Below are positions 3,525 to 17,739 of a stretch of DNA of 64,000 nucleotides, one piece after another (the stretch's first letter is position 1; every line of letters starts with the position of its first letter). The DNA is from Pilaira anomala (lineage: Eukaryota > Mucoromycota > Mucoromycetes > Mucorales > Mucoraceae), in assembly GCA_025716855.1 (NCBI GenBank), contig JAIXMQ010000095.1, positions 1 through 64,000 on the forward strand, given 5' to 3'. A program made the position numbers and the translations under genes. Below the pieces are notes generated by a model. The model had not been told where the DNA came from, ran no database searches, and saw nothing but the letters and a program-made list of their open reading frames with translations.

Positions 3525-4672
3525 TTACTTATTTTGATGAAATTCTTTTGCAAATGTTTCTGCTACAATAAGTGGGAATACAAGTGTAGCATCTGCATAG
3601 ACTTTGCATGATCTACTATTTAATCTAATTTTACCCCAAGAAACAGCTTCATCTGGACGAGCACCAGCGTCACTACCATCAAATTCTTGACCTGTATTAA
3701 TATAAACAGCATAATCTGCACCATTTCTCATTAAATTGGCATTACAGATATGATGTTTAATAATACCACCACCTAAAATGATCATACCAGTCTTTTTAGC
3801 AAATACAGCTTGATTATTCATTAATTTAATATCAGCGGCAATATCCACAATTAATCCAGGATTCTTATAAGAGTGAAAGTAAATCATATCACCTAAAGAA
3901 CCATCGGTGATAGCAGGACAAAATACAGGAATATCATTCTTTGAAGTCCAATAGTAAATACTAGACTCATCATTGATTTCTTTACCTAATCTATGAATCA
4001 TACTAGAAGGAGTCCAGATAATACCCTTTTCCTTTTGTTCTTTTAACATTTCATCAAAAATTGGAATAATCCAGTCTTCAAATTTACAATAGTTGTTATT
4101 AGGTACTAACAAATTACCAATTCGATTTAAACCCTTCTTTCTTAATGCAGTACCATCCAAAGCAAAATCGCCCAAGTAAGTTGGTGCTAAACATTTAATA
4201 AAATCTTCTTCTACACCACCCGCTGAAGATACAATGACATCTACCATCTTATGTTGTGCAAGGAATCGAATGATCTCTCTTAATCCTGATGATACCAAGT
4301 TGGATGTGTATCCTAAAAAGATTTTACATTTGGTTTGTTTACGAATTTCTGGGTCAAGAAAATCTTTTGCTTCATCTTCGTTAATAGGTTCATCAGAAAG
4401 ACGCCATTTTCTCTAGAATATGCATATACAATTTTAGTATCTGTTTGTATATATTGTTTCTTATACTTTACCATTTCCTTGATAATCTCAATTGATTCGC
4501 CAAGACTGCTACCTTGATATCCAATTTGCTTATAAGCTCCCAATAACTGGGAAAGTGTCAACTCTTTATTAAAGTCAGGGCCTTGAATAAGTACTGAGCC
4601 TTCGGGCATCTCAACTGACTCTACAAAAACGGCATCTAAAGCACCATTAGGTTGTTCGGTATTATTTGACAT
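3525..4672 (-). CDS. DYS1: Deoxyhypusine synthase
   Basis: Two exons (4672-4467, 4410-3525) with a 56 nt GT-AG intron give 363 aa, the usual size. The protein transfers the aminobutyl group of spermidine to the eIF5A lysine with NAD, the first step of hypusine formation, in the cytosol. Family landmarks are visible: WRLSDEP just after the intron, [35 protein letters not shown], [18 protein letters not shown] and [20 protein letters not shown]. The catalytic lysine lies in DEAVSWGKI, and counting gives Lys329, the same number as in the human enzyme. The start is the ATG of [10 protein letters not shown]; an upstream in-frame extension lacks family similarity. Confidence 0.95.
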
Positions 4673-6044
4673 ATTGATAGTAATAAAGAACAAGAAAAAA
4701 AAAACTTTTTTCCTTAAAGTCCCTGTCACGTTTAAAAAAAAAAAAGAGTTTTCGGTAGTGGAAAAGCAGTCATTTCATTCGTTTTGAAAAGTGTTTCCAA
4801 TGAAAAAACTAAAGTGAGTTGAAGAACACTGCAATGATTGTGTTTTTAGTTAGTTTATCATGATATTTGCTATTAGTCTCACTTAAGATTAACGTGGCTA
4901 CATTATACTGCCTCAATTGCAATTTTTATCATCCTTTCTTTAAGTTGTAAACATGCATCATGCGTTCAACATGCAAGTAAATATATTACATTTCGTCAAA
5001 GACAATTAAATAAATAATGCAGTTTTAAAGCGGTTATTTAAATTTGTGCATGATAAAATAAAGGCATCTTTTTTTTTTACACATAGATTTCAAAAGATGG
5101 TTTAAAGATGAACATACATTATAAATTTCGCGTGGCACGTATTTCGGAACTGAGTAAGATTGCATAAGTTTTGTTACACTACTAAGCCAATGTACGTGTG
5201 TCACATCACACTTTTAATGATTGTACCTTTTGTAAAAAAAAAAGAGACATGTAATGTCTGAAACAAGAGAAACTATATCACTTCAGGTTCATAATTACCA
5301 TTTCGATCAGTAAGCGTAAGACTTAATATTAGTACATGCAACAAAATGTGGATATATTACAAGTAGATCAAATTATTTGTGCTCAACGCACTTTCAAATA
5401 TTCTTTACTCTGTCTCAAATCATGATTTTCTCTTTTTTTAAAAAAGTAACAAAAGCTGTAAACTATATTCTCCTTAGTAACCAGTTGCGTCTGTTGCTAG
5501 GCAGTAGTGTTAATTTTAATTATATTGTTTAGCTACGTATCCAAGTAACGCTTTTCAAATGTTTTTTTTAGGTCTGGACCCCAACACATAAAAAGCTTAA
5601 AAATAGCAGAAAATAGAAGTGTCATAAAATGAATGAAAAAAAAAAAAAACGCAGATGATGAATTTTTGTAAGACACATAAAAAGATTATGTATTATTAAT
5701 CCCTTGATGTATAAACTTGCATTGTGTGTGTGTGTGCGATCCAGGAGGAAGAGTAGACAAATCTTAAAGCTACAGACATGATATAAAATTAGCAGAGCTG
5801 AATCTAAATTCAGGACACACGCTTTATATAAATAATGTGTATAGATTGGAAGCGCTTTTCTTCAAGTACAGTTTGATGGCAGACTTTATATTACTTCCAT
5901 TCACCCGAATGTATCTTTTTTTGTAGAACATGGACTACGCAAACTCAGTGGTGTAACAAATATTCTTTTAGTTCAAATAGCGTTTCTTTTTTTTCTGTAC
6001 TCTTTTCCCCTCTCTTTTTTTCTTTTTTCCTGTAGAAAGAAAAT
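4673..6044. other. Intergenic region, 1.4 kb, no gene recognised
   Basis: AT-rich DNA between the divergent DYS1 and tandem-Hsp70 genes, with no long frame that looks protein-coding on either strand. It contains short A and T runs, a GT repeat near 5725 and one motif resembling an RFX X-box (near 5485-5505, see findings). It probably holds both promoters. No tRNA-like A/B box pair was noticed. Confidence 0.6.
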
Positions 6045-9000
6045 ATGTCAATAAAAGATATAAAATATGTGGTGGGAATAGGTTAGTATCAAGCCTTTTT
6101 TTTTCGAAATAAATACGTATGATTAATTTAAAATTTGGTTCTTTTTTTAGACTTTGGTGCAAAGTCTTCTGGTATTTCAGTTGCTCATGTAGATAAACCG
6201 TCTGAAAAGTATACAGTGGATACATGGTAAGTTGGATTTTTGATTTTTTTTTTTTATGTATGTATACTAATATAAGTTGATTTTTTCTTAGGGAAGGAGA
6301 TGGAAAGACGAGTAATAAAGAGCCCAGCCAGTTCTTAACTTCTATCTTGTACCAAGCCAATGGGGAAATTAAATGTGGTTTATCTAACAACGAGAACGAT
6401 AAAGCGATTCGAGATGAAAAAGATGTTTATATTGATAATATCAAGCAATATCTTTTAGATATTGAACAAGCCAATGTAGAACTTGGAGAGATGAAAGAAG
6501 GATTGACTATTCAGCAAGTTGTTTCTGATTACTTGAGGTTATTTATTCAACTAGGTAGAGAACGCATCCTACTCCAAGAGAAATTTAAACAAACTGAAGA
6601 TTTCAAGGCTGAAAATATTCGTTATTGTATCTCTTGTCCTAAATCACAAGAAAAATTTATTAAAAGATGTTTTATTGAAGCCGAGATTGTTGAAGAAGAG
6701 AAAATTGATGGACGACTTGTGTTTGTAACGGAAGCCGAAGCAACTGCTTATCATTGTATTTCATTGGACAGACAAAAGACAAAGATTATTCATGATCATA
6801 CTTATCTTGTTTGTGATATTGGGCATTGTAGCTTTGGTATTTCAAAAATTCAAGCTGATACAACAGAGAATTTAAGTCATGTAGAGTTAATTTCTGAAGA
6901 ACCTGGACAGGGTTCAATGAACTTGGAGGTTCGATTAAGAAGTTACTTGACAGAGAATCAAGATAGGTTAAAGTTAAATCCAACTATCATTAATAAGTTA
7001 GTTGAAAAGTTCGTAGATGATATCAAGTTCTCTTTTGGTATGACACATGTTGAAGATACAATTGAAGAAGAGCCGATTGAAGAGAATGATGCAGCATACG
7101 AAGAAGGAGTAGACGGAGAAGAAGATGATGAGGAAGAAAAAGATGAAGATTATGAAGATGATGAAGATGATGAAGATGATGAAGATGAAGAAGATGATGA
7201 AGATGAAGATGATGACGAAGACGAAGACGAAGAAATTGTTTTTATAACGCATAAAATAGTGGACAAACAAGTTGAAGACCTTGGAATTGGTAATAAGGAG
7301 CAAGAAGAAGATACAGTACCTGTATTTCACGAACACGACAAGGATGGTAATCCTATTTTGATCTCACCTCAAGAATTAGATGAGCACGTATTCTCGCCTT
7401 ACATTGATAGCGTATTTAATTATATTTTGGAAGCTGATGAAAGTGTTGCTGGAATTAATGGTGAATCTAGAATATTTCTTTCAGGAAGATACAGTTCAAA
7501 TGATCATTTCCTTGAGAAATTAATGACATCTAAAGATAGTCGATTTGCTCGGTTCTTTTGTCCTATTGAAGATGATTATATCAATGCAGTCTCTTTAGGT
7601 GCAGCTTCTTTTGGATTAAGATCTGATAAAAAATCACAAACTCCTTTTTATATTAATACAGAACCTGCTGATAAAAACGGACCAAAAAAAGATGATAATT
7701 TAAGCCCATTAGAACAGAAAAAGGATGATTTTATTGTTGGTATTGATTTTGGTACAACTTACTCTGGATGCTCTTATGCTGATTGTAGAGATATTGAAAA
7801 CCCTTCTGAGGCAATAATTAAAACGATTGAAACAGGATGGCCTGGAGGAAACGCAATTGCATTTGGTAAAACACCAACATTAATTATGTATGATAAGAAA
7901 ATGAAACCAAAGCATTGGGGTCAAGAAGCAAAAATCAATGTAGACCATAATAGAGATCTTACTCTGTTAGGTAATTTCAAATTATTTCTTTCACCTAAAT
8001 CCGTTGCACAATACTATGGACCAAACAATGAAGAAATTGAAAGAATTCGTGCAGAAAATGGCTATGGTGTCCATGTAGAAAATTCTAATTCTAATCAAGA
8101 CAAGAAAGGGCCTTACAAGGTGAAGAAATATAATAAAGAGGAAAATATAGATGCTGTCAAGATTATTGCTGATTACCTTCGAGTATTTAAAGACCATGTC
8201 ATTAAACACATTATTGATAATGAAACTCATAAATCCAAAACAGGTAGTTTTAGTAAACTCTTCAGAAAGAAGGAAGTAAATGGTGGCTTTAATTTTAAAT
8301 TTGTTATTACTGTGCCTGCTATGTGGACAGCTTCTGCTAAAGAAACGATGGCACAAGCAGCTATTGAAGCTACTATTATTAAGAAAGATGAATTGGATAA
8401 GCTCTTAATCATAAGTGAACCTGAAGCTGCTGCTCTCTTTTGTGAAAAGAAATATGAAAGCTATGTTCGTGATCCTAACGATCCTACTGCTGGTTCAAAC
8501 TTTATCGTCTGTGATGCCGGTGGAGGTACGGTCGATTTGGTCACATTTAGCTTAACATTTGATGAGTATGGTAAACCAATGATTTGTCAAATTGGAGATG
8601 GTTCTGGCGATACTTGTGGGTCCACTTACCTTGATGGTAAATTTAAAAAGTACCTAGAAGAATTTTATCAAGATATGGAATTGGATATTAATTTCTCAAA
8701 TACCAATTTTGACTCTGTTATGGATAACTTTGTTCATAACTTGAAGGTAAAAAAAAAAAAAAAAAACGTCATAATATAGATATTAACCTTTTTATATATA
8801 GATTAATTACGTTTCAAAAATAAATGAAGATAGTTATCTCGATATCAGATTACCTACTAACCGTATTATACATCAAATTCCAGAAAAAGCAAGAGGAAAA
8901 TATTATTTACATAATAACAACACAGTACTTAGGATGAGAAATGTAGATATGAAAGAAAAAGTTTTTGATGAAATTGTTGATAGTATTTTGAAACTAATTC

Positions 9001-9852
9001 AAGGACAATTGGATCAAGCACATAAAGCAGGCAAGACGATTAAAACAATTTTAATGATTGGTGGATTTTCACGAAATAAATATTTACAACAACGTGTTAA
9101 AGATGAGTATAACGGTCTTTATACGGTTGGTATACCCGAAGAAGGTATTGCAGCTGTTTCTCATGGTGCAGTTTCTTATGGTTTAGAGCCTCGTATGATT
9201 TCTGAAAGGTTGGCAGGACATTCGCTTGCATTAGAAGTACGAGCACCATTTGATAAATCAAAAGGAGATATTCGTGAAAAAATTGTAAATGATATCAATC
9301 ATAAAGAATACACTAAAAATCGTTTAGAATATTTTGTCAAGAAATCGCAAATTATTGATGGCGAAAACCGAGAAATATATCACAAAACAGTTAGTGTAGA
9401 ATATCCTAACAATGCTGTCATAGGTATACATATATATACATATATATCAAGAAAATTTATTTAAGTTTCATGATAATTAACACACTTTTTCTACAATTTT
9501 AGCTGTCTTTTCATATGATTTCAAGGAAGAAGATAATCCAAAAGGTTGGAGATATGTAAGCAAAAAACATACTAAGATCATGGAAGAAACAATTGAATTG
9601 CCTAAACTCGAGAATATTCGTGATGGCGAGAAAATTCTTTTTGATGTTGGCCTTCAAATGGATCATATTGGTGTTACTGTTACTGTCAAATGTAAAGATA
9701 CTCGTATTAATGCCTTTATCAGAGAAAATACTAACGGTAGAAAGAATGGTTTGACTATCGATCGTAAATGTAGTCTGGTTGTTTTCAGAAACAAAAGTCC
9801 TTTGATCGAATACTCTTTAGCTCAATCAAATTTCTTGTTAGGTTCATCATAA
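6045..9852 (+). CDS. Giant HSPA12/Hsp70-like protein with two ATPase-fold modules, the first degenerate
   Basis: Five exons (6045-6081, 6151-6226, 6292-8746, 8802-9423, 9503-9852) give 1179 aa. Module 1 (about residues 1-470) starts VVGIDFGAKSSGISVA, where the phosphate-1 loop lacks the usual DFGTT pair. Its phosphate-2 site is only CDIGHCSFGISK (about 210), and its last strand is FLSGRYSSNDHFL. An acidic Asp/Glu run fills about residues 294-353 inside this module. Module 2 starts at about 520 with VGIDFGTTYSGCSYADC and keeps TVPAMW, the phosphate-2 loop CDAGGGTVDLVTF (about 778), GDTCGSTYLD and the adenosine motif MIGGFSRNKYL (about 941). Hsp70/HSPA12 proteins bind ATP and act as chaperone-like or signalling proteins. 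No Hsp70 substrate-binding domain or EEVD tail is seen. A substrate cannot be inferred. The next gene at 11740 is a paralogue. Confidence 0.85.
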
Positions 9853-11739
9853 AAACAAAAACAAACAAACTGTAAATCTTATTAATTTAGGGACTGTGAT
9901 GATTATTAGAGTCTCTCTAAAAAAAATAAAAAAAAATAAAAAAAAAATAAAAAGAATAAAATAAAATAAAGCTTTTTTAACTGTAATACATCATGGAAAA
10001 AAAATCGAGCGAGTTTCATTATATCAAACTAAGTATCAAAGTATTCATGAATGGGTTAAACATTTTGTGATAAAAAATAATTACACTAATCAGTGACATA
10101 TATATACACTACTTGTAGTAAGGTTTATCAGTACATTATATTATCAACAACAATCCTTTTTCTTACATATCAATTATTATTCTTTTACAAACACGGCTTC
10201 AATTTAAACGTACGCTTTTATTACACACTTTTCTAAATAGAATACTAATGTTCTATTGCTGTCAACAGAACAAATCGCATCATGGTTATTTAAACTATCC
10301 AAACGAAATCAATTCTCTAGAAGCTATGGAGCTATCCCAATTCATAGAGTCACTCAGTATCAAATGGAAGCTTGATAAAAGAATAAGCTATTCATTTGGT
10401 AAAGAAATTAAAGAAAGTAACGAGAAGTATTGGACAAAAGAGGTATATATCAAGGATCCATATAAACGCAAACAAGTTGTCCAAGGAATAGCAAAAGAAT
10501 AAGAACTTGTTTCTGACAAGTTCTTTACTGATGCGGTTATTGCCAAACAAACAAAGCTACCCGTTTCAATTTATCGCTTATATTTTTGTAGAACGGATAT
10601 AAAAATAGGTACTTTGAACGGTATTGTGTTAGGTAATTATTTGCTAGAAAAAACGGTCGGCGCTGTGGCAGCTCGAGGCGCTACTATGGTCAAGATATTG
10701 CCTCGATCTATGGCATTAAGGTCTACTGTAGCCACATTAGATAGACCTGTCAAGGTAATACTAAGAGGTAGCAGCAGTAGGTTTAAAATACACCGCTGGT
10801 TATGTGTTCCAGTGATTGAATCAAACTAGTGCATCAGATATTTTCATATAGACGCAAGTCAATTCAGATGGGATATTTTAATCGAACTAAATATGTGAAA
10901 ATTAATGTGCATTCAAAATATGGCGAAGTAAGGTTGCAGTACGTATAATATGAAGCGTTCCTGCAGTTTTATTTACACTCTTTCAGATTAAGTTTAGACC
11001 CACAAATAAGTCAATTATTTATATTATATAAATAATAAACAACATTATCTACTAAAAAAGTATTTAATGATATCAGCGTTGGGTGTATTTGTACAAACTA
11101 TCAATTAAATGGGTTTGCAGTATTATAAGAAGTATGAACAATATGTTTATAGAATTAACCATTTGAAGTGATACAACGTTGGCTTTACTGTACGACAAAA
11201 GGTCATTCCGATCTTCGGATGCCAAAATTTAGATTATTTATTACACGCTATTCTTGTACCAATTTCTCTTGAAATAAAATAAAATAAAATTGCAAGTGAA
11301 AAAGTATATAATGGGGCCAACTTAGTTATAGCATGGAATATCGATAGTGTTACCAGTAATTAGTTTGCGGCACTGTTTACAGGCATAGGGTGCACATAAA
11401 AGTAAGGCTGAGGATATTGCGAATTAGTCAATGTAACATAGTACACAATTTAAAATGTGTTGACCATCTTTAAAGTTTCCAACAGTAAAAACATCAAAGA
11501 AGTGAATTATTTATGAAATTTTTTGCTGTTTTATTGTTATCATGCATTAGTTATTAGAATAAAAAAGCGAGTAAAAGCTGCAGAGATAAAAAAAAAAAAA
11601 GCTTATTATACACGACTACTGGCTTATCGTTTAAGGTTTGATTTTGGTAACACGTTGAAGATTACACGAATAAAATATGAGATAATACCCCCCTTTTTTT
11701 TCATTTCCCTTTTTCTTCTTTCAATAACAGTAAAAAAAA
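9853..11739. other. Intergenic region between the two Hsp70-like paralogues
   Basis: About 1.9 kb of AT-rich sequence. It opens with an A-rich tract (9910-9970) that probably carries the poly(A) signal of the upstream gene. A broken coding fragment lies at 10248-10829 and is listed separately. The remainder up to the second paralogue shows no supported gene. Confidence 0.55.
10248..10829 (+). pseudogene. Broken coding fragment, possibly from a nucleotidyltransferase C-terminus
   Basis: One frame stays open from 10248 to 10829 except for a single in-frame TAA at 10500-10502, and the reading on either side looks protein-like: a segment with KEVYIKDPYKRKQVV before the stop and SDKFFTDAVIAKQTKLPVS after it. 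The pattern of an aromatic/hydrophobic helix followed by (I/V)xDP(F/Y) and a basic helix recalls the PAP-associated end of Cid1/Trf-type poly(A)/poly(U) polymerases, but this is weak. No start codon context or matching upstream exon was found. It could also be a spliced gene with an intron over the stop, although no good GT-AG pair is obvious there. Confidence 0.3.
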
Positions 11740-14700
11740 ATGGCTTTTAGATATCACAAGTATAAAATCATTATTAGTATTGGTGAGAGCAAGAGAGAAA
11801 GAAAGAAAACATGCTTTCAAGTTTTAAAAATAATTCTACGATATTATAGATTTTGGTACAACTTTCTCAGGAACATGCTATACTGTTACTACTGAACTAA
11901 CTGCTAGAGAGCTTAGAAATGCAAAATATCCAAAAATTATTCAAGTTACAAGTTGGTAAATAGCTAATTTTTATACTATTAAAACTTACCCTTAACGAAC
12001 CCGTTTTATTTTATTCTAGGCCTGAGCAATCAGCAAGTGAAAATAAAACGCCTTCTATTAACATTTACGATACAAATTTTCATTTATTATATTGGGGAAA
12101 AGCTGCTAGAAAGCATATTGAAAATGGCAATTTAAAAGCTGATCAAATTGTTAAAGAACGATTTAAACTGGACCTTCCTTCTTCTGTTCCACAAAAAGGG
12201 ACTATCTATAAAACAACCAACGGCAAAAAGATAGAACATGATAACATGAGAGCAACTATTGATTATTTCAGAGAAATTTTTGATTATACAGTCAGTGCCA
12301 TTCAAAATAATATAGGATTCAGTAAAGAAGTTTCTGTTAAAAAAGATGGAATTCGTTTTGTCATTACTGTGCCCGCCCAATGGAACGATATTCAAAGAGC
12401 TATCATGCGTACAGTTGCAAAAGAAGCTGGATTAATTACTGATGAAGACCACGAAAATCGTTTACTAATTATCAACGAGTCCTCTGCTGCTACTCTCCAT
12501 TGTGAACAAACTAGCGATGATGCTGACAAAATGAGCCCGGGAGATAAATATATTATTTGTGATGCTGGTGGTGGTACTGTTGATCTTGCAACCTTTGAAT
12601 CCGTTGAGCGCGTTGATAGTGACCCAGCCAGTAGTTTTCGTCGCTGTCAATTGACTGCTGACAGTGGCGACAGTTGTGGCTCTACTTTTATAGATAAACA
12701 ATTGTTTGCCCTTCTTACACGCTTTTGTTATAACAATGAGCCTCCCAAAGATGAAGAAGAAACTAAACAGCGCGAGCAATTGTTCTCTCCCGTTATTGAT
12801 AAATTCATACGCCTGATCAAGGTATACCCTAATTCCCTTATATCGATAAAACCTTTTTTTAATTTTCGAATTTAATAGCCAGTCTTTGGTCAACGATCAA
12901 GAAGTTTTAAATTTCCCAAATGTACTCACGCCAAGGCTTTAGAAAAATATAAAGCTGAATCATCTGATAGATATGATTATTTTAATGAAATATCTGGCGA
13001 AGGTGATATAAATGACAATCAATGCCCCGTATGTAAAGTCGAAGATTTTAAACATCTGTTTAAAAAAGATTTCGGACAACGTAAGCTTTTTTCTTTGTAA
13101 TTTTTGTCTTTCATTCATTAACCTTTTGATTTATATTTTTGTTTTATGTAGCCACTATTTTAATTCTAGAAGATGCCAACATTGTACCTAAATTAGAATT
13201 TTCTTTACCTACCTGCTGCTCGGTAGAAGTTGACGGCGGTACTTGCACATTAACAGTATCATACGATATTATGAGAAAGCTTGTGTTCAGAGACGTTGTT
13301 AAAAGTACAATAGACCTTCTAGATCGGCAAATCAAAAAAGCCAACGGCAACATTGACCGTACTTATCTTGTAGGAGGATTTGGTGGCTCTCCATACTTAC
13401 GAAAGATGATTAAAAAGCACTTTTTAAAAAAGGGCACAAAGTTCCCAAATACTGAATTCTATACTGGTACTTTAATTACTGATGATATAGGTAATTCTGC
13501 TGCAATGAGAGGTGCCATGGTTTATGGTATTGATGGTAGCAGAAGAGCGCCTCAATCTGATGTCGCTGAAAAAATGTTCAAGTACAACAAAACAGATAAA
13601 TATAATGTTTTAATTTGTTTGGGTAAGTTCTATTATTATTAGATAAAACTATTTTCTCTTACCAAGCTTGTACAGATATCGGATATAATGGGACATCGTG
13701 TTCTTACAAAGATTTAGAAAATAAATCTAGTGAAATGATTGATATTGTTGAATGGTAACTATTTATATCTCTAACCACAATTTATGTATATTTCTATTCT
13801 AATAATTTACTGATAGGCCTGGATTGAAGAAAAACAATTTCTTAATTCCTACTGCAAAAGAAACCACCAAAGAAAAAACATTATGGGGTGCTCAGGTTGC
13901 TCAAACAATTGATTTGGAGCATGAAAAGCTAATTGTTCCTAGCAAATTAATGGCTATTGTTAAGGCTGATCTCCGAGATTATCTTTGTGAATATTTGAAG
14001 CTTGTACTTGGTCATGTATATCAAATTATTGCCAAAGCAAGTCCTCATCTCGCTGACAAAAATAAGTATAGATATGTCATTACCATGGAAAACTGTTACC
14101 AATTCTTTAATAACAAATCTCAAATGCGTCGCATTGCTGAATTAGCTGGTGTTGTCTCTAAAGAAGATTCTGTTGAACGTCTTTTATTAATAAGTCGTGA
14201 CAATGCTTCAGCCATGTACAATGAAAAGAAGTATTTTTCTGAAAAACCTGGTTATACTAATCACTTTTTGCAAATTAATATGTATCATGATACCTGCCAC
14301 TTATCATTATATGAATCTACCAAAATTAGTGGCACAGATATGGAAGCTGAGGATGATAAAGATACTGGACTTTTTAGAAATGTTAGAAGTATGAGATCTG
14401 CTACGTTCGATTTCGACTTTATCAGTAAAATTGTTTCTAATTTGAATAACTATATATCAACAAATGTTTGTATTAAATGTAGTGGAAGTCATAATACATA
14501 TAATCCTACATATTACGCTGAACTTAGAAGAGGGTTCCTCAATTATATTAAGGTTTCTATATATATACTGGAATAGATTATATAGAATTGCAATGTTAAC
14601 TTTTATTTGTATATAGACAAAATTGAACTTTAACAATAATGATGAAACTCAGAATATTCCTATCACTGATTCTGGATGTTGTATCGCTTCAATCAAAGTA

Positions 14701-15782
14701 TACGACCTTTTGGAACATGTTTTTAGGCCTGCTGTCAAACATTTAGCATCTGAGATAAATCGATTTGCAACTCAAAACGATATGGCCCAGCGTTTCAGTT
14801 TTGATAAGATCTTTTTATCAGGCGTCTTGTTAGAGGCTGACCAGACAAACTATGCATTTTTGGAGCGCATTATCGTTAACAATATTTCGGAAATTATGAA
14901 CATTCAAAGAGATTTTATCAAACCCTCAGAAGACAATGGAAAAGAAGCACTTTTAGGCGCTGCACTTTACGGAAATCAACCTACAGACTTTACTGAAAGA
15001 GTTTCAAGAACTACCTACGCGGTGAAAGTTAGTGCGTTCAAGTTAAAAGAATTTAACGATGATGAAAAGAAGGCTATTGAGGACGAAAAAACAAAAACCA
15101 TTAAAGATGCAAAGAAGGGTACCGCTACTGATTTGAAAAAGAGAATTTACGCCTTAGAATCCGCATTTGGCCTTACTGATCTTGATAAGCCGGTAAAGTT
15201 ATTTTATCAAGCGCCTCATAATCCTTCCTCTAGCACTCTCGAAAAAAAACCGGAAACACCAACTATCTTCATTCATCGCGGTGACAAAATTTTAGAAAAA
15301 GATCAAATGAAGGGTATCTCTAAAAAGTTTTATGCACAAGAAGATTGTATTGTTTATGCTAGTAAGTAACTACCGTTTGCATTTAAAATGACTTTTAAAA
15401 AACTAACGTAAACTCCATAGCTATTTATTGTTCTGATTCAGCTAAGCTAAAAAGAGAAGAAGCCGAATTAGATGCTAGTTTCCGAAAGATTCACCAATTT
15501 GAAGTTTACGTAAAACGCGACCTTGATGATCCAATGACTGTTGGTGAAAAACCTAGGCTTCACTTTGAGGTCCGTTTTATCCCAGATAACAATGAAGCCA
15601 AGTTTGAAGCGAAGGCTAGTGCAAGATTAGGAAAGAAGATACCAGAGTTCCGTTTCAGAGATGAGTTCTTGGTGGCCAATATTTATGATGACTTACAATA
15701 TACAGAAATTGGCGATTTAACAATCAGAGAAGAAGAAGAGGCGGCCCAATTGACCGTGAGCGAAAATGCAAAACCATTGTAA
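11740..15782 (+). CDS. Giant HSPA12/Hsp70-like protein with two ATPase-fold modules, the second degenerate
   Basis: Nine exons (11740-11782, 11850-11955, 12020-12821, 12879-13080, 13152-13622, 13676-13754, 13817-14552, 14617-15361, 15421-15782) join in phase to 1181 aa. Module 1 is canonical: DFGTTFSG (15-22), FVITVPAQW, CDAGGGTVDLATF (about 230), GDSCGSTFID (about 264) and LVGGFGGSPYL (about 457). Module 2 begins at residue 542 with DIGYNGTSCSY, placed exactly where an exon starts just as in module 1. Its phosphate-2 region reads LQINMYHDTCHLSLY, with no DxGGGT, and its final motif is LSGVLLEADQTNYAFL, so nucleotide binding is doubtful. Small Cys pairs (CPVC, CIKC) occur in both modules. It lies tandem to the 6045 gene on the same strand, and both encode almost the same length. 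Function unknown beyond the ATPase fold. Confidence 0.85.
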
Positions 15783-16151: not shown

Positions 16152-17739
16152 ATGGTTACTTATGGAGGAGGTAATAATACATTAGAACACAACAAAAAAA
16201 ATAAGATCTAATAATTCCTTCCTGTTGTTTAGATGAAGTTAACGCGCTTGTGTTTGACGTTGGATCGACCTCAACACGTGTAGGTTTCGCAGGCGAAGAT
16301 GTACCAAAATCCATGTTCCCTACTTCCTACGGTATCGATAAAGAAAACAACTATTATATTGGCGATGCCAAAATAAACACCTGGAGGCCTAATATGGAAA
16401 TTAAAAACCCTATGCAAGACGGACTTGTGCACGATTGGGATGCCATTGAACATATTTGGCAAAGTGCTTATAACAACATGTTGCACGTCAACTCGTCAGA
16501 ACACCCTTTATTATGTACAGAGCCTGCATGGAATACACAAGAAAATCGTGAAAAAATGATGGAATTAGCTTTTGAAAAGTTTGATACACCTGCTTTTTAT
16601 GTTGCCAAAGATGCTGTTATGACAGCGTAAGTATTACATAATTTCTTTTCTCTGTATTTATAGTAGATATTGAATGATTGCTCGTACAGATTTTCTGTAG
16701 GTAGAGCAACTGCTTTAGTTTTGGATTCTGGAGGAAGTACAACAAGCGCAATACCTGTATACGATGGTTATGTCTTAAAAAAGGGTGTACTTCATCAATC
16801 AATTGGAGGCGATATTTTGACTCAACAAATTCGAGATTATATTAAACGAAACTTACAATTAGAGGTAACACCTCTTTATAAAATTGCTAGTAAGAAACCT
16901 GTTGCTGCAGGTACTCCACCTCAACTTCAATTGCGTAAAAGACCTGATACAACAAAGAGCTTTGATGACTACCAAATTTCGGTAAACTTCTATACATTAG
17001 TAAGAAAAAAATGACTAAACTAATCCAAATTGTTGTTTAGCGAGTTATTCATGAATACAAGGAATCAGTTTCTCAAGTTTCTGAATTCCCTTATGACGAA
17101 CATTTATTGAGCCAAAGACCTCAAAAGCCCTTTGAATTTCCTGATGGATATAATAATTCTTTTGGTGCGGAACGTTATAGAGTTCCAGAAATTATGTTTA
17201 ACCCTCATCACATCCGTTTGGTAAATATATAGCGCATAGAATATTCTGTTGTTGCAAAGATTGATTATTTTTTTCGATAGCCTCCTATCGAACCTGGAAA
17301 AGAATCACAAAAGATCCCCTCACTGGGTATCTCTCCTAATCAAATTCAACGCTCTGTTGGTGTATCTCAACTCGTTTTTAATAGTATCAGCGCATGTGAT
17401 ATAGATTTACGTCCTTTACTTTTTAATAATGTTATTGTTACTGGTGGAAATACTCTCTTCCCTGGATTTGCTGAAAGATTAAGTAACGATTTACCAATGA
17501 TGGTGCCTGGTGTAAGTCTGAAATTCACTTTTTATTTTTAATACCTTTTTATTGATTTATACATTATATAACAGAGCAAAGTTAAAGTACATGCTGCTGG
17601 TAGTCAAATTGAACGCAAGAGTAGCAGTTGGTTAGGCGGTTCGATATTAGCTTCTTTAGGTACATTCAATCAGTTATGGATTTCAAAGAAAGAATATGAA
17701 GAAATTGGCCCTTCTATTATCGAAACAAAATGCCAATAG
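16152..17739 (+). CDS. ARP4: Actin-related protein 4
   Basis: Six exons (16152-16170, 16233-16626, 16690-16981, 17041-17220, 17281-17511, 17575-17739) give 426 aa. The N-terminus [18 protein letters not shown] is the ARP4/BAF53 signature, the first intron falling inside the GGDEV segment. Actin-fold landmarks follow: [40 protein letters not shown] and [14 protein letters not shown] near the end. An insertion with [17 protein letters not shown] is typical of ARP4 rather than actin. ARP4 is a nuclear subunit shared by NuA4, SWR1 and INO80 chromatin complexes, and pairs with actin in them. Confidence 0.92.

Follow-up and report, generated by a model that had tools for sequence, protein, structure and literature searches.

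Why would two neighboring genes each encode two Hsp70-like ATPase modules, one with and one without nucleotide-binding loops, in opposite order? We addressed this question for genes A and B in a stretch of 64,000 nucleotides (nt) from Pilaira anomala (contig JAIXMQ010000095.1, positions 1 to 64,000; hereafter the window), whose assembly comprises 34.25 Mb in 225 contigs. In the reading that we favor, with a probability of roughly 0.55, an HSPA12-like dead ATPase half serves as a tethered regulator of the live half, and the mirror image came about through separate duplications and losses. We call a module live when its nucleotide loops are retained and silent when they are replaced, and we abbreviate the modules as A1, A2, B1, and B2. 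The two genes lie on the same strand with a 1.9 kb gap between them, their proteins share the order module, short linker, module, tail, and the closest homologues of both are from Mucorales (Helicostylum, Thamnidium, Mucor). We built both models by hand and checked the splice sites by spliced alignment of annotated homologues to the window. The features are as follows (aa, amino acids).

6045–9852, + strand: gene A, 5 exons, 1179 aa; silent module 1, live-looking module 2, β-rich tail
6045–6081, 6151–6226, 6292–8746, 8802–9423, 9503–9852, + strand: exons of gene A (hand-built model, homologue-checked)
6045–7618, + strand: A module 1, aa 1–480, silent, with acidic stretch
6815–6838, + strand: DxGGGT-loop position of A module 1, reads DIGHCSFG
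7478–7492, + strand: adenosine GG-loop position of A module 1, reads LSGRY
7721–9188, + strand: A module 2, aa 515–985, intron 8747–8801, loops intact, Pfam HSP70 match
8513–8536, + strand: DAGGGTVD loop of A module 2
9057–9071, + strand: adenosine loop IGGFS of A module 2
9189–9852, + strand: C-terminal β-rich tail of A, aa 986–1179, intron 9424–9502
11740–15782, + strand: gene B, 9 exons, 1181 aa
11740–11782, 11850–11955, 12020–12821, 12879–13080, 13152–13622, + strand: exons 1–5 of gene B
13676–13754, 13817–14552, 14617–15361, 15421–15782, + strand: exons 6–9 of gene B
11740–13531, + strand: B module 1, aa 1–511, loops intact, Pfam HSP70 match
12561–12584, + strand: DAGGGTVD loop of B module 1
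13370–13384, + strand: adenosine loop VGGFG of B module 1
13595–14973, + strand: B module 2, aa 533–932, silent, three nucleotide loops all replaced
14079–14102, + strand: conserved replacement motif ITMENCYQ of B module 2, at the ITVPAxW position of live modules
14277–14300, + strand: DxGGGT-loop position of B module 2, reads NMYHDTCH
14379–14408, + strand: conserved replacement motif NVRSMRSATF of B module 2, near the GDxCGS position of live modules
14974–15782, + strand: C-terminal β-rich tail of B, aa 933–1181

A first-pass annotation of the window had put both proteins at about 1180 aa with two ATPase modules each, and our models bear this out at 1179 and 1181 aa, with no internal stop in either. 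All four introns of A were recovered with P0002, and three of the four with P0004, whose start follows the first intron; all eight introns of B were recovered with P0040 and likewise with P0037. For the distant homologue P0057, seven of eight B introns agreed and one was shifted, and with the distant P0028 the last two true introns of A agreed and two extra ones were added. Exon 3 of A (2455 nt) spans from module 1 far into module 2, and exon 5 of B spans module 1, the linker, and the first strand of module 2. Because a single exon thus crosses the module junction in each gene, neither locus is naturally two genes. We therefore rejected the barely credible reading in which each locus holds two genes and the long proteins are modeling artefacts; homologues of equal length and module order are, moreover, annotated in several species. 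Exon continuity and these annotated proteins point to one transcript per locus. Module 1 of A contains an acidic stretch with 52% Asp/Glu (D/E) over 103 aligned residues; the corresponding D/E tract at window positions 7070–7240 is repeat-like, the region is also acid-rich in P0002–P0007, and most other A-type proteins have a short tract or none.

To compare the halves, we read the three nucleotide loops from an alignment of the modules. Loops 1, 2, and 3 of A1 read DFGAKSSG, DIGHCSFG, and LSGRY, the remnants being the Asp and one Gly of loops 1 and 2, whereas those of A2 read DFGTTYSG, DAGGGTVD, and IGGFS. In B the polarity is reversed: B1 reads DFGTTFSG, DAGGGTVD, and VGGFG, and B2 reads DIGYNGTS, NMYHDTCH, and LSGVL, where D-I-G of loop 1 is what remains. 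The loops are thus replaced in A1 and B2, not intact in the same register. Pfam HSP70 (PF00012, curated cut-off 20.6 bits) matched only A2 (1.5e-7, 30.5 bits) and B1 (4.1e-7, 29.1 bits), with no HSP70 match above the cut-off for A1 or B2. The earlier description of A, with loops lost from module 1 and kept in module 2, agrees with these data; that of B was right about the intact module 1 and the missing DxGGGT loop of module 2, but the loss is not confined to that loop and takes in all three. Profile comparisons among the four modules and the single-module set gave probabilities of 96.9 to 99.9, as the proposed module homology would have it (A1–A2, 99.9 over 383 columns; A1 versus the single-module set, 99.9; B2 versus the single-module set, 99.5 over 355 columns; B2–B1, 99.0 over 207 columns; A1–B2, 96.9). 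By this measure, the silent modules A1 and B2 are real relatives of the live ones. Loops, Pfam matches, and profile comparison together support the initial picture of two HSPA12-like modules per protein, with one putative pseudo-ATPase half each, in opposite positions.

To which class do these proteins belong? Their modules have the Hsp70-type ATPase fold (a family missing from the fold-search lists is not thereby excluded). They are not canonical Hsp70s, as the matches of about 30 bits cover part of the profile, with no full-length match that includes a lid-bearing substrate domain, while the best Hsp70 in the same genome scores 866 bits over 1–599; a search of NCBIfam returned weak DnaK-type matches only, far below the cut-offs. 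Both A and B do have the highly divergent ATPase domain with scattered Hsp70 motifs that the available text of PMC2266713 gives for HSPA12, and that text also places an 86-residue element in human HSPA12A/B, inserted at Hsp70 168–192. The divergent Hsp70-superfamily ATPase module is shared with proteins of the HSPA12A/HSPA12B type, and fungal single-module relatives are named “Heat shock 70 kDa protein 12A” or “actin-like ATPase domain”; the closest single-module relatives (Mortierella, Rhizopus, Apophysomyces, and Mya entries) are called HSPA12 by annotation name only. Unlike the HSPA12A/HSPA12B type, A and B carry two modules, one of them silent, and since there is not one module per protein, we class them as an HSPA12-like two-module variant rather than as HSPA12. 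A1 and B2, having lost the nucleotide loops and kept the module, qualify as candidate pseudo-ATPase halves.

Two modules per chain, as in A and B, also occur in Rhizophagus (P0082, P0084), a Microbotryomycetes fungus (P0066, possibly a product of fused gene models), and the clam Mya arenaria (P0131). The Rhizophagus and Microbotryomycetes proteins differ from A and B in keeping the three nucleotide loops in both modules. P0131 has NAGGVSVN at loop 2 of module 1 and an intact module 2, a possible third case of one-sided loss. Mammalian hexokinase I, which belongs to the same fold superfamily, likewise has duplicated halves, one catalytic and one regulatory; unlike A and B it is a sugar kinase, is not a sequence relative of Hsp70, and has a single polarity. 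The titles and abstract beginnings listed by searches of an open-licence library gave no account of fungal HSPA12 or of a two-module or pseudo-ATPase Hsp70, and the available text of PMC8778642 describes an Hsp70-family expansion in other early fungi without the A/B architecture.

We fetched 11 stretches of the genome that contain relatives. In seven of them the gene has a single module, and its loops are intact (C24a, C46, C166, C112, C124, C217, and C2). A third two-module gene, C24b (C24, 352500–358500, minus strand), has the polarity of A: its module 1 keeps loop 1, followed by DADDYY and FLFGKF, and its module 2 reads DFGTSFSK, DAGGGTVD, and TGGLG. C148 is A-like as well; its module 1 looks shortened, and its module 2 reads DAGGATVN. 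C180 (about 139848–140523) is a broken A-like fragment with stops, 72–75% identical to A module 2. C35 (159000–164500, minus strand) has a single module with the altered loops DLGSTFSG, DIGGFSTS, and LSGGCS and is possibly a stand-alone pseudo-ATPase.

Is the one-sided loss recent? We scored the loops with our own, generous patterns in A-type proteins (G1 and P0001–P0029, n = 30) and B-type proteins (G2 and 26 B-type matches, n = 27), excluding P0030, P0034, and P0035 as single-module, partial, or remote. Among readable B-type sequences, module 1 passed at loops 1, 2, and 3 in 19/20, 25/25, and 25/25 cases and module 2 in 0/26, 0/27, and 0/26. The corresponding A-type values were 6/18, 0/29, and 0/29 for module 1 and 26/30, 20/30, and 29/29 for module 2, with all three module 2 loops kept in 18 of 30 proteins and 1 of 30 incomplete. 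Loop 1 of module 1 is missing from many entries; as it falls on a very short first exon, many of these may be mis-annotated. On these loop readings, one-sided loss in opposite order in A and B is conserved in related Mucorales; the B-type pattern is strict, and the A family contains copies in which both modules look impaired. Because related species have the same pattern, we rejected recent decay, and the term “decayed” under which the halves were first described is misleading for a pattern that is fixed across related species.

The silent modules are conserved to a similar degree as the live ones in B-type proteins (mean identity over 325 protein pairs, 53.6% silent versus 51.2% live) and somewhat less in A-type proteins (276 pairs, 44.3% versus 50.4%). 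We also compared motif conservation with that of random blocks, leaving out P0058, P0030, and P0001. The nucleotide loops of the silent modules behaved about like random blocks, their conservation being reached by 1212/5000 and 856/5000 random draws, while the loops of the live A module (3/5000) and the six motifs of live B1 (0/5000) stood out. Taken together, the six motif positions of silent B2 stood out as well (26/5000), owing to new motifs such as ITMENCY and NVRSxRSATF, several residues of which are invariant in a 23-protein alignment. Loss of the ATP site from a module that is kept and has new fixed motifs is what is expected of a repurposed module, and the conservation of the arrangement in related fungi suggests a function for the silent halves.

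How did the mirror image arise? In the module alignment, one intron position lies within the Asp codon of loop 1 (column 173, phase 1) and one within a Trp codon (column 216, phase 2); the others are columns 556 (phase 0) and 936 (phase 1). Module 1 of B carries introns at 173, 216, and 556, plus one of its own, and module 2 and the tail of B carry those at 173, 216, 556, and 936; A has those at 173 and 216 in module 1 and those at 556 and 936 after it. All four positions, and no others, are occupied in the single-module paralogue C24a, and the other six single-module loci have an intron at column 175, not 173. The shared columns indicate that the modules from which A and B both descend had a gene structure like that of C24a. 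The common exon phase from which a shared ancestor had been deduced does exist in the form of the phase-1 intron, but its presence in single-module C24a means that it is no proof that this ancestor already had two modules. The 173/phase 1 intron also interrupts module 2 of C24b and, as judged by aligning C24b with B module 1, its module 1 as well.

For the module tree we used 53 of 117 extracted modules and, for a second topology set, 26 modules with fixed pruned topologies only. B1 and B2 were sisters in the 53-module tree (ultrafast bootstrap [UFBoot] 93), and the pairing A1+B1 / A2+B2 was rejected by the approximately unbiased (AU) test with 53 modules (p 0.006) and with 26 (0.025 under LG, 0.019 under C20), which speaks against a shared two-module ancestor. 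The cross pairing A1+B2 / A2+B1 was rejected with 53 modules (AU 0.0117) and not with 26 (0.085–0.086), and A1+A2 / B1+B2 gave AU 0.14 with 53. Given the rejection of A1+B1 / A2+B2, the mirror image probably arose separately in A and B; as judged from trees and introns, A and B most likely each had their own module duplication and their own loss, starting from a C24a-like ancestor with a single module.

We postulate that the silent module would be a structural regulator tethered permanently to the live one, so that a contact between an Hsp70 and an atypical Hsp70 would take place within one chain. Such a regulator would keep the live module in its ATP or its ADP form or let it go, with the live module in turn transmitting its state to the β-rich tail. 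In A, where the live module adjoins the tail as in Hsp70, the silent module would regulate it from the N-terminal side. The order in B puts the silent module between live module and tail, so the live module would have to signal through it, and coupling is thus predicted to differ between the two proteins. Regulation by direct contact would resemble what atypical Hsp70s do in trans: in the available parts of the sources, atypical Hsp70s act as Hsp70 regulators (PMC3879978), Ssz1 and Sse regulate a live Hsp70 by ATPase-domain contacts (PMC8476630), and Sse binds ATP with marginal ATPase activity (PMC8476630, PMC3879978). Whereas Ssz1 and Sse are separate polypeptides, regulator and engine would share one chain in A and B. 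We consider this allosteric reading of the live and silent halves plausible.

Several observations weigh against this account of a tethered regulator with separate origins. Not every A-type protein keeps a live site, since 11 of 30 fail one or more loops of module 2. The structure models (homologues, shallow alignments) reached a predicted local distance difference test (pLDDT) of 69.9 and 74.8 and a predicted template modeling score (pTM) of 0.45 and 0.72, and the fold comparison put the silent halves hardly to the test. As to origin, the Kishino–Hasegawa (KH) and Shimodaira–Hasegawa (SH) tests did not reject an ancestral tandem with 26 modules (p 0.061–0.064), the pairing of A1 with B2 alone was not rejected (AU 0.364, 53 modules), which leaves the place of A1 open, and long branches may mislead the module tree. 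An ancestor with two live modules whose duplicated copies lost opposite halves would fit the similar overall architecture of A and B, their adjacency, and the absence from both of a tail between the modules, yet we find it quite doubtful in view of the sister relationship of B1 and B2 and the AU rejections with both module sets; a shared tandem ancestor is disfavored by AU, though not by every test. Neutral decay still under way, with the silent halves as leftovers, is highly improbable: turnover in the A family (the relic C180 with its stops, the truncated-looking C148) and the module 2 losses just mentioned speak for it, but the frames are open, the silent modules are conserved, and the replacement motifs are invariant across species. 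The silent halves could instead bind ATP without hydrolysis and so sense it, in the manner of Ssz1 or Sse. Loop 2 often still begins with Asp-x-Gly, and module 1 passes the loop 1 rule in 6/18 readable A-type proteins; we nevertheless think such a sensor unlikely, because loops 2 and 3 fail in 29/29 readable A-type module 1 copies and all three fail in every readable copy of B module 2.

The remaining alternatives concern a partnership between the two proteins, as suggested by their relatives' gene neighborhoods. In our homologue searches, scoring was confined to the approximately 8000 candidates with the most words in common, so a species missing from them need not lack these genes. Among the best 120 of 917 matches in a profile search with B, two-module B-type proteins from Mucor, Parasitella, Helicostylum, Thamnidium, or Backusella extended down to 614 bits, with the next match at 275. 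Mucor flavus has the consecutive tags 002446 (B), 002447 (A), and 002448 (B), and Helicostylum has tags two apart, 001502 (A) and 001504 (B). A- and B-type genes lie on contigs of equal listed size in 7 cases, two each in H. pulchrum, M. flavus, and M. mucedo and one in T. elegans; these 4 species' cases account for 9 of 29 A-type matches, and M. saturninus P0059, annotated at 2201 aa, joins B1-B2-A1-A2 in one protein. This neighborhood hints at an A–B partnership, and we entertain tentatively, as an unlikely alternative, the heteromer of the first-pass annotation, a complex in which each partner has one live site; each silent half would dock the live half of the other. The trees of linked pairs are alike (r 0.88; 36 distances, 9 pairs of our choosing), without control for the species tree. 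Tandem duplication alone would, however, make neighbors of relatives; a start-like Met kept at the A end of P0059 makes a gene-model fusion the probable source of that protein; many M. saturninus and M. mucedo A-type copies sit on contigs without a listed B-type match; and no heteromer is required, given the live-looking site that each protein has of its own. Rather doubtful, too, is the more elaborate idea that A and B, two-headed separately, form one co-evolved machine by silent-to-live contacts, in which A, with its live module beside the tail, would be the client-handling engine and B, with its silent module beside the tail, a dedicated exchange or timing factor for A. We also noted that an A-type subclade (P0005, P0006, P0007, and P0009; M. 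flavus, Helicostylum) has a changed module 2 loop 2 in 4/4 proteins, that B-type P0045 and P0047 form the matching subclade, and that the tags of P0006 (A) and P0047 (B) are two apart; the A–B pair may have duplicated together here.

Around the two genes, the window contains a deoxyhypusine synthase gene upstream of A (3525–4774, minus strand; Pfam 1.1e-117 for 3525–4412) and, between A and B, two open frames at 10122–10829 with no Pfam match, which may be relic or non-coding. Directly downstream of B lies an actin-family gene (16205–17014; Pfam Actin 1.9e-49 and 9.7e-24), which shares its fold superfamily with the modules of A and B.

Live and silent Hsp70-type modules in one chain, in both orders and in neighboring genes, provide natural constructs for asking what a dead half does, and the A/B pair can test whether its position relative to the tail matters. 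Were A and B one co-evolved machine, an Hsp70 and its atypical partner, elsewhere separate, would have been fused twice, in opposite order. Two-module HSPA12-like proteins have kept both loop sets in Rhizophagus and lost one in Mucorales, so the silencing of a module can be compared across lineages.

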